From the NCBI GenBank assembly GCA_016209275.1, contig JACQWM010000020.1, positions 1-34,472 of the forward strand: a stretch of 34,472 nt of DNA. The letters run 5' to 3'. Positions 33,244 through 34,472 of the stretch are shown here, piece by piece (position 1 is the stretch's first letter; every line of letters begins with the position of its first letter). The notes under the pieces are model-generated. The model had not been told where the DNA came from and made no database searches. It was given only the letters and a program-made list of their open reading frames with translations. The position numbers and the translations under genes were made by a program. This stretch comes from Candidatus Omnitrophota bacterium. GTDB taxonomy: Bacteria; Omnitrophota; Gorgyraeia; Aquiviventales; Aquiviventaceae.

Positions 33244-33281
33244 GATATCAAATATCGCCGGTGCCGGCGATATCTGATATC
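33244..33281 (+). promoter_or_regulatory. Near-perfect 38-bp palindrome upstream of mnmA
   Basis: GATATCAAATATCGCCGG (33244-33261) and CCGGCGATATCTGATATC (33264-33281) pair over 18 positions with one mismatch, separated by TG. It ends 11 bp before the mnmA ATG and lies 12 bp after the cytochrome c stop. It could be an operator for a dimeric repressor, an RNA hairpin over the ribosome-binding region, or a small mobile palindrome. No T-tract follows, so an intrinsic terminator is unlikely. Confidence 0.8.
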
Positions 33282-33292
33282 ATGCCTCTGCG

Positions 33293-34472
33293 ATGTCTAC
33301 AAAAGTTGTTGTTGCCATGAGCGGAGGGGTGGATAGCTCGGTCGCGGCGGCGCTGCTGCATGAGCAAGGCTTCGAGGTGATCGGCGTGACGCTGCAGCTC
33401 TGGGGCAAGGACGTGTGCACCACGGCTGGCACCAAGTTGTGCTGCTCGGTCCGCGATGCGCTGGATGCCAAGGCGGTGGCCAAGCGGCTGGGGATCCGGC
33501 ATGAGACGCTGGAGCTGGCCGACACGTTCCGCACGCATGTCATCGACTATTTTGTGGAGAGCTATCACGAGGGGCTGACCCCCAATCCGTGCATCGCGTG
33601 CAACGACCATATCAAGTTCGGCTCGCTGCTTGAGCATGCGGACCGGCTTGGCGCTCAGCTCATCGCCACCGGCCACTACGCGCGGATTGTGCCCCCGGCC
33701 AGCCTGGCGAGCGGATGTGCGAGCTCAGCGAGCCGGCAGCGAATTCTGTGGAGCTGCGGCCACCTGTTCGATCGCGCCCTTGCCGGGCGCGGAGTTGGTG
33801 GCCGCTTCGCTGCAAGGCGAGCGCCCGGAGCGAGCACTGAGCGAGCAGGCTGGCCGGGGGCACCGGGGAGTTCTTCACCCACCACGAACATCGAACGATA
33901 TCAGCTCTTGAGAGCTGCTACGCCAGAGAAGGACCAGTCCTATGTCCTCTTCAACTTGACGCAAGAGCAACTCTCGCGCGCTCGATTTCCCATCGGCGAG
34001 CTGACCAAGCCGCAAGTGCGCGAGATGGCCCGCTCGCTTGGGCTGGCAACCGCGGAGAAGCCTGACAGCCAGGATGTCTGCTTTGTGCGCGACCGGAATA
34101 AGGATGGGTTTCTACGCCGTGAGCTCAAGATTGCCGATCAGCCGGGTCAGATTACCACCGTGGATGGTGAGGTTCTTGGCACCCACCAAGGCTTGCTCGG
34201 CTACACCATCGGCCAGCGAGAGGGCATTGGCCTGGCGGTGGGCAAACCGATCTACGTGCTCGCCATCGACCAGCCCAACAACCGCCTCGTTGTTGGCGAG
34301 CGAGCGCATCTCATGCGTCGAACGCTTATCGCCGAGCGAGTCAACTGGGTGTCGATCGCGCCGCCAACCGAACTGATCCGCGCCTGGGCTAAGATCCGTT
34401 CCCGCCATGAGCCAGCCCTGGTCACGATTACACCACGACTTGGCTCGGAGCTGGGGGCTCTGGGCTCTGGGC
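33293..34472 (+). CDS. mnmA: tRNA-specific 2-thiouridylase MnmA, with an in-frame insertion; 3' end outside the window
   Basis: An ATP-pyrophosphatase that thiolates U34 of tRNAs for Lys, Glu and Gln. The P-loop is VVVAMSGGVDSSVAAALL; the two catalytic cysteines are in LTPNPCIACND and PDSQDVCFV; IATGHYARI, KDQSYVLF and GLLGYTIGQREGIGLAVG are family motifs. The frame is open from ATG 33293 to the window end. Between ATGHYARI and ERYQLLRA relatives have only a few residues, but here about 68 are found, most of them encoded by a palindromic element (33689-33863). Whether the protein is active is unknown, but the open frame and intact motifs argue that it is. A palindrome lies just upstream; the last bases of the window are a 7-bp tandem repeat. 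Confidence 0.92.
   Translation, partial: MSTKVVVAMSGGVDSSVAAALLHEQGFEVIGVTLQLWGKDVCTTAGTKLCCSVRDALDAKAVAKRLGIRHETLELADTFRTHVIDYFVESYHEGLTPNPCIACNDHIKFGSLLEHADRLGAQLIATGHYARIVPPASLASGCASSASRQRILWSCGHLFDRALAGRGVGGRFAARRAPGASTERAGWPGAPGSSSPTTNIERYQLLRAATPEKDQSYVLFNLTQEQLSRARFPIGELTKPQVREMARSLGLATAEKPDSQDVCFVRDRNKDGFLRRELKIADQPGQITTVDGEVLGTHQGLLGYTIGQREGIGLAVGKPIYVLAIDQPNNRLVVGERAHLMRRTLIAERVNWVSIAPPTELIRAWAKIRSRHEPALVTITPRLGSELGALGSG
33689..33863. repeat. Palindromic coding-region element inserted in mnmA
   Basis: A 175-bp element bounded by perfect 18-bp inverted repeats: GTGCCCCCGGCCAGCCTG (33689-33706) and its exact complement at 33846-33863. Internal stems are GCAGCGAA (33736-33743) with 33806-33813, GCGGCCACC (33756-33764) with 33797-33805, and an apical hairpin CGCGCCC (33773-33779) / GGGCGCG (33785-33791). 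It begins on a codon boundary of mnmA. I see no obvious target-site duplication. No transposase is encoded, so it would move in trans. It is open in four of six frames; the other two are open over most of its length. Confidence 0.85.
34455..34472 (+). repeat. 7-bp tandem repeat running into the window end (inside mnmA)
   Basis: GGGCTCT is repeated twice, followed by GGGC where the window ends. It is within the mnmA frame, giving Gly/Ala/Leu/Ser-rich residues where the family normally has a conserved beta-barrel segment. Confidence 0.7.

Follow-up and report, generated by a model that had tools for sequence, protein, structure and literature searches.

A family of palindromic repeats lying in frame within mnmA, miaB and iscS of one Omnitrophota family

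The contig analysed here in full (34,472 nucleotides of a Candidatus Omnitrophota bacterium, GenBank assembly GCA_016209275.1, contig JACQWM010000020.1; hereafter the window) carries within its mnmA gene a palindromic element of 175 bp, which we refer to as R1 (33689-33863, forward strand). In Omnitrophota, R1 makes up a new family of coding-compatible palindromes; it is repeated, restricted to one lineage and conserved in its base pairing, the sites that it occupies are empty in relatives, and in five genomes it lies in frame within a gene. We interpret it as a non-autonomous, dispersed palindrome of a single Omnitrophota family, which would spread as a hairpin, resides mostly between genes, and is probably translated as a loop where it has entered mnmA, miaB and iscS; we assign this reading a probability of roughly 0.8.

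R1 forms a single long hairpin, with an MFE of -120.8 kcal/mol and a z-score of -7.7 (none of 200 shuffles was as good). The preliminary description of this DNA had reported perfect 18-bp terminal inverted repeats, nested internal stems and an apical 7-bp hairpin, and each of these features is recovered in the fold. The left terminal arm (33689-33706, forward strand) is perfectly complementary to the right arm (33846-33863, forward strand), and between them lies the conserved core for which a covariance model was built (33706-33846, forward strand; 154 bits at the mnmA copy). The nested stems include 33736-33743/33806-33813 and 33756-33764/33797-33805, with an unpaired 12-nt bulge (33744-33755, forward strand) that is the fastest-varying part of the element. 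The second of these stems belongs to the upper hairpin (33756-33805, forward strand), together with a conserved internal loop (CTGTTCGAT..GGAGTT) and the apical 7-bp stem 33773-33779/33785-33791, whose loop is TTGCC. Four of the six frames of the core are free of stop codons, as had been claimed, and the VPPASL start and GWPGA end noted in both orientations are accounted for by the perfect complementarity of the two ends.

The interrupted gene, mnmA (33293-34472, forward strand), encodes the tRNA 2-thiouridine(34) synthase and runs off the contig end. R1 sits between the MnmA motifs TGHYAR and KDQS in one frame that is open throughout; the catalytic motifs are intact despite the insert, and NCBIfam calls MnmA in two separate stretches that flank the R1 segment. 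The spacing from TGH to KDQS is exactly 29 amino acids in all 22 of the related MnmA sequences, in which the site is empty, and 91 in the window. Alignment with these relatives places the junction after Ile132 and gives 62 extra codons (33689-33874), encoding residues 133-194; the flank of the empty site in the closest relative, ATC TCA, matches the ATT...TCA of the window. Although 175 is not a multiple of three, the insertion extends 11 bases past the palindrome (33864-33874, forward strand), which are likewise missing in relatives, and this extension preserves the frame. The net gain is therefore 186 bp, and the original placement of the element between two conserved motifs without a break in the frame is upheld. 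No clean target-site duplication was found at the mnmA copy, where the flanks CGCGGATT and CGGGGAGTT are at best an imperfect duplication. Tandem repeats of GGGCTCT occupy the contig end (34455-34472) inside mnmA, where relatives continue normally; these may be a further repeat insertion at which the assembly broke off.

R1 is neither a single-copy sequence nor a fixed part of MnmA, the two outcomes that the preliminary description had set against its own reading. In addition to the 22 empty sites, five copies were found in the host genome, two of which are truncated at contig ends, along with an internally deleted sixth. A nucleotide search located R1 in 9 of 99 genomes, the host included, and the covariance model located it in 10 of the 27 genomes of one Omnitrophota family, spanning about ten genera with between 1 and 26 matches per genome. 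Outside the family the model gave no match in a sample of 246 genomes of the class and 384 of the phylum, scanning 85k genomes for the R1 pattern returned matches solely in groundwater Omnitrophota MAGs, and the plasmids and viral contigs that were searched gave no match. The family had been proposed to be unrelated to the Rickettsia and Wolbachia elements, and an Rfam search with eight R1 loci returned no relevant match. No paper on repeat elements of Omnitrophota was found in the literature collection searched, and we know of no in-frame palindromic elements described in this phylum.

The gene context of the copies was read with a home-made hexamer gene finder applied to the fetched stretches, which recovered the expected genes of the window and is distinct from curated annotation. 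By this measure nearly all of the approximately 60 copies are intergenic, with about 90% between genes and about 10% within them. Five copies lie in frame within genes, namely mnmA of the host, miaB of three genomes (G011, G015 and G016) and iscS of G019; the frame is kept and the insert is free of stops in all five. One further copy (L103) lengthens a C-terminus. In G017 and G023 copies also occur as inverted pairs 60-165 bp apart (L093-L097, L120, L122, L123), and in most of the G023 pairs the partners come from different R1 subfamilies.

The miaB site lies between LLxFPxLLRxID and R(I/V)RFTTSHP. Five genomes have no insert at this position; R1 occupies it in three genera, in the sense orientation in G011 and antisense in G015 and G016, and the remaining genomes carry other palindromes of unrelated sequence, all of them in frame (palindromic inserts in G000, G005, G008, G011, G013-G016, G019, G021, G024 and G025; L161-L177). 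The host site is filled by a member of the GATATC family, whose perfect palindromes of 32-38 bp have the form GATATCAGATATC-(variable self-complementary centre)-GATATCTGATATC. This family has 48 copies in the host genome, of which 35 are intergenic and about a dozen lie within or touch genes, several of these at signal-peptide starts; one copy lies in the gap before mnmA (33244-33281, no strand assigned). Its copies stand mostly 5-20 bp from flanking genes, none of the 35 intergenic ones in a divergent gap; several are in frame as RYQISxxxxISDI, among them copies that separate the charged start of a signal peptide from its hydrophobic stretch. A third palindrome family is present in 17 of the 27 family genomes and occupies the miaB site in G019, G005 and G008 and iscS in G005 and G015. 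At one place in iscS the host has a GATATC palindrome and G019 has R1; in-frame palindromic inserts in iscS were seen in at least five genera, in two nearby loops (L252, L259, L264, L118, L218). In the L171 locus of G024 the insert region of miaB is present twice, in different versions, one with a further palindrome nested inside the insert, a possible partial duplication or assembly effect. A second site in MiaB, after EKRQ, holds variable in-frame inserts (L170, L175, L176), some with repeats such as PRTPNPEPRT.

Comparison of the two antisense miaB copies gives insight into the age of these inserts. Between G015 and G016 the protein is 67-75% identical and the flanking four-fold sites are 40-51% identical, which is near saturation, whereas the insert is 94% identical in nucleotide sequence, with 41 of 44 four-fold sites matching (93%), and its R1 core is 98% identical. 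Such near-identity of the inserts despite near-saturated synonymous sites around them suggests recent, site-recurrent spread, and the sequence comparisons are read most simply as R1 having reached one shared position in miaB recently. A single ancient insertion into miaB, passed on by vertical descent and maintained by constraint rather than by mobility, would explain why G011, G015 and G016 share one codon site, but we consider it unlikely. In addition to the disparity between insert and flanks, the fast-varying bulge matches at 12 of 13 positions in G015 and G016, which makes constraint on pairing a poor explanation for the match; the G011 copy, which is also more diverged, is inverted; and other genera have different palindromes at the site or none. 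A bolder extension of recurrent spread is that palindromes home to particular codons of conserved sulfur-transfer genes (miaB, iscS and mnmA), with near-identical copies reaching the same miaB site recently and repeatedly, in different genera and in either orientation, and with unrelated families sharing the site. We offer this tentatively, as a possibility that we are inclined to doubt; if true, it would represent an intein- or intron-like, site-recurrent lifestyle achieved by a hairpin without splicing or an encoded enzyme.

The base pairing of R1 itself is conserved. In an alignment of 69 matches, fitted to the covariance model, two-sided changes are seen in 29 of 33 pairs and 93.8% of cells pair, with a covariation score of 0.255; shuffles score 0.091, and sliding the partners gives no more than 0.034. 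An independent alignment of 17 copies gives 10 pairs and beats 500 of 500 shuffles on most measures. The sequence of the arms varies from copy to copy with their complementarity retained, and variation is greatest in the 12-nt bulge and the apical loop. This conservation fits the expectation if the folded strand is recognised. Strong covariation, the restriction of variation mainly to the bulge and apical loop, and the intergenic position of most copies would also be consistent with a conserved structured RNA of Omnitrophota, acting in regulation or processing, whose overlap with genes is incidental. This alternative appears distinctly improbable, as the neighbours of R1 are unrelated housekeeping genes with no common function (recO/glyQ, carA, nadC/valS, dnaK and genes of the ubiX/ubiD type), its orientation is mixed, following that of the co-directional genes around it in 9 cases and opposing it in 16, the copy number ranges widely among genomes, internally deleted and paired inverted copies exist, and several copies lie within genes in either orientation.

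The proposal that R1 has been selected to be free of stops did not hold: the 288 frames of 48 copies include 121 that are open, whereas dinucleotide shuffles lead one to expect about 156. The idea that R1 is tuned to be translatable was rejected on this deficit of open frames. Since the frames are not unusually open and most copies are intergenic, the in-frame cases are best seen as those that selection on the host gene allowed to survive. AlphaFold models of MnmA and MiaB assign a pLDDT below 50 to the insert residues (138-199 and 262-321, respectively), and in both models a recognisable fold surrounds the low-confidence insert. The extra loop originally envisaged for MnmA is thus predicted as a disordered one, and the models support, but do not prove, a disordered surface loop in both enzymes, because the underlying alignments are shallow (20 sequences for MnmA and 12 for MiaB) and the mean pLDDT is about 70. 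It is very unlikely that R1 is instead spliced from the mRNA or skipped by the ribosome, in the manner of mitochondrial bypassing elements, leaving MnmA and MiaB insert-free; its extremely stable mRNA hairpin would suit such a process, but neither splicing nor bypassing would require the frame to be kept and stops to be avoided in five of five in-gene cases, and the other palindromes at the same sites are likewise in frame. Although all of the genomes are MAGs and several copies lie at contig ends, the probability that R1 is a chance palindrome or an assembly artefact is negligible, with about 0.0003 perfect 18-bp inverted pairs (spacer of up to 200 bp) expected by chance in the window and the family present in ten genera from independent assemblies.

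We infer that R1 is mobile, that it is mobilised in trans, and that it is translated where it lies in genes. In the dispersed-palindrome reading that we favour, the unit would be a structured core of about 140 bp with complementary arms, spreading most likely as a folded single-stranded DNA (or RNA) hairpin that a trans-acting mobiliser recognises. Most copies would settle between genes. Where R1 enters a loop-coding stretch of mnmA, miaB or iscS only in-frame, stop-free outcomes would survive, so that the element would probably be translated as a floppy surface loop with the enzyme still working. A RayT transposase had been suggested as a candidate mobiliser, and RAYT-like Y1 transposase genes are indeed present in 19 of the 27 family genomes, three of them in the host; however, no R1 copy was found beside them at the 30 loci examined (flanks of about 1.5 kb). 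No RAYT was detected in the two genomes richest in R1, which are 66% and 78% complete, and a scan of 10 genes flanking R1 gave no match to a transposase.

R1 resembles REP sequences and BIMEs in consisting of extragenic palindromes, both single and in inverted pairs, with occasional intragenic units. It is considerably larger, at 140-175 bp compared to 20-40 bp for REPs, and the repeat-flanked Y1 transposase gene of the REP/RAYT system has no counterpart among the loci examined here. The GTAG (or CGTC) tag marks the foot of a REP hairpin; GTAG is absent at the mnmA copy and precedes several of the G023 copies. Unlike REPs (PMC3733652), R1 has five clear intergenic sites that are divergent and none that is convergent. 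MITEs are short, non-autonomous, dispersed elements with terminal inverted repeats, some of which form in-frame fusions (PMC10969869), and R1 shares with them its small size (about 175 bp), lack of autonomy, dispersal, terminal inverted repeats and in-frame gene copies. It differs in being palindromic over its whole length, with an internal structure that is conserved and covaries; MITEs are recognised by conserved terminal repeats with a target-site duplication, whereas the arm sequence of R1 differs between copies.

Discussion of in-frame palindromic elements has centred on intracellular Rickettsiales, for which reduced selection is an available explanation. The Rickettsia palindromic elements (RPEs) are palindromes of 100-150 bp in several families, found in frame in functionally unrelated genes (PMC3767692, PMC10969869), and orthologous genes are reported to carry different families at one site or close to it (PMC3767692). 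R1, like the RPEs and the Wolbachia palindromic elements, keeps the frame in genes whose functions are unrelated and is absent from relatives, and as with RPEs different palindrome families share one site of orthologous genes, here miaB and iscS. Nearly half of RPE copies are in genes, compared with about a tenth for R1, and the hosts of R1 are environmental MAGs of a phylum distant from Rickettsia. R1 has no conserved peptide or preferred frame, unlike the RPE proper, since its copies use either orientation and more than one frame. No sequence relation to RPEs was seen, as judged from the Rfam search and from the 85k-genome scan, with its hits only in Omnitrophota. Several unrelated in-frame palindrome families re-using sites in conserved enzymes of environmental Omnitrophota make both spread and loop gain testable by comparison, and they serve as a warning that mobile DNA can be the source of unusual disordered loops in proteins of these MAGs. 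Taken together, the in-frame copies in miaB and iscS and the unrelated palindromes at the same sites show that the Rickettsia-like interpretation was largely right: R1 is a repeat with empty sites that lies in frame in mnmA, miaB and iscS. The proposed selection for stop-free sequence falls away, and most copies prove to be intergenic. R1 works like the RPEs, and the likeness shown is one of working.
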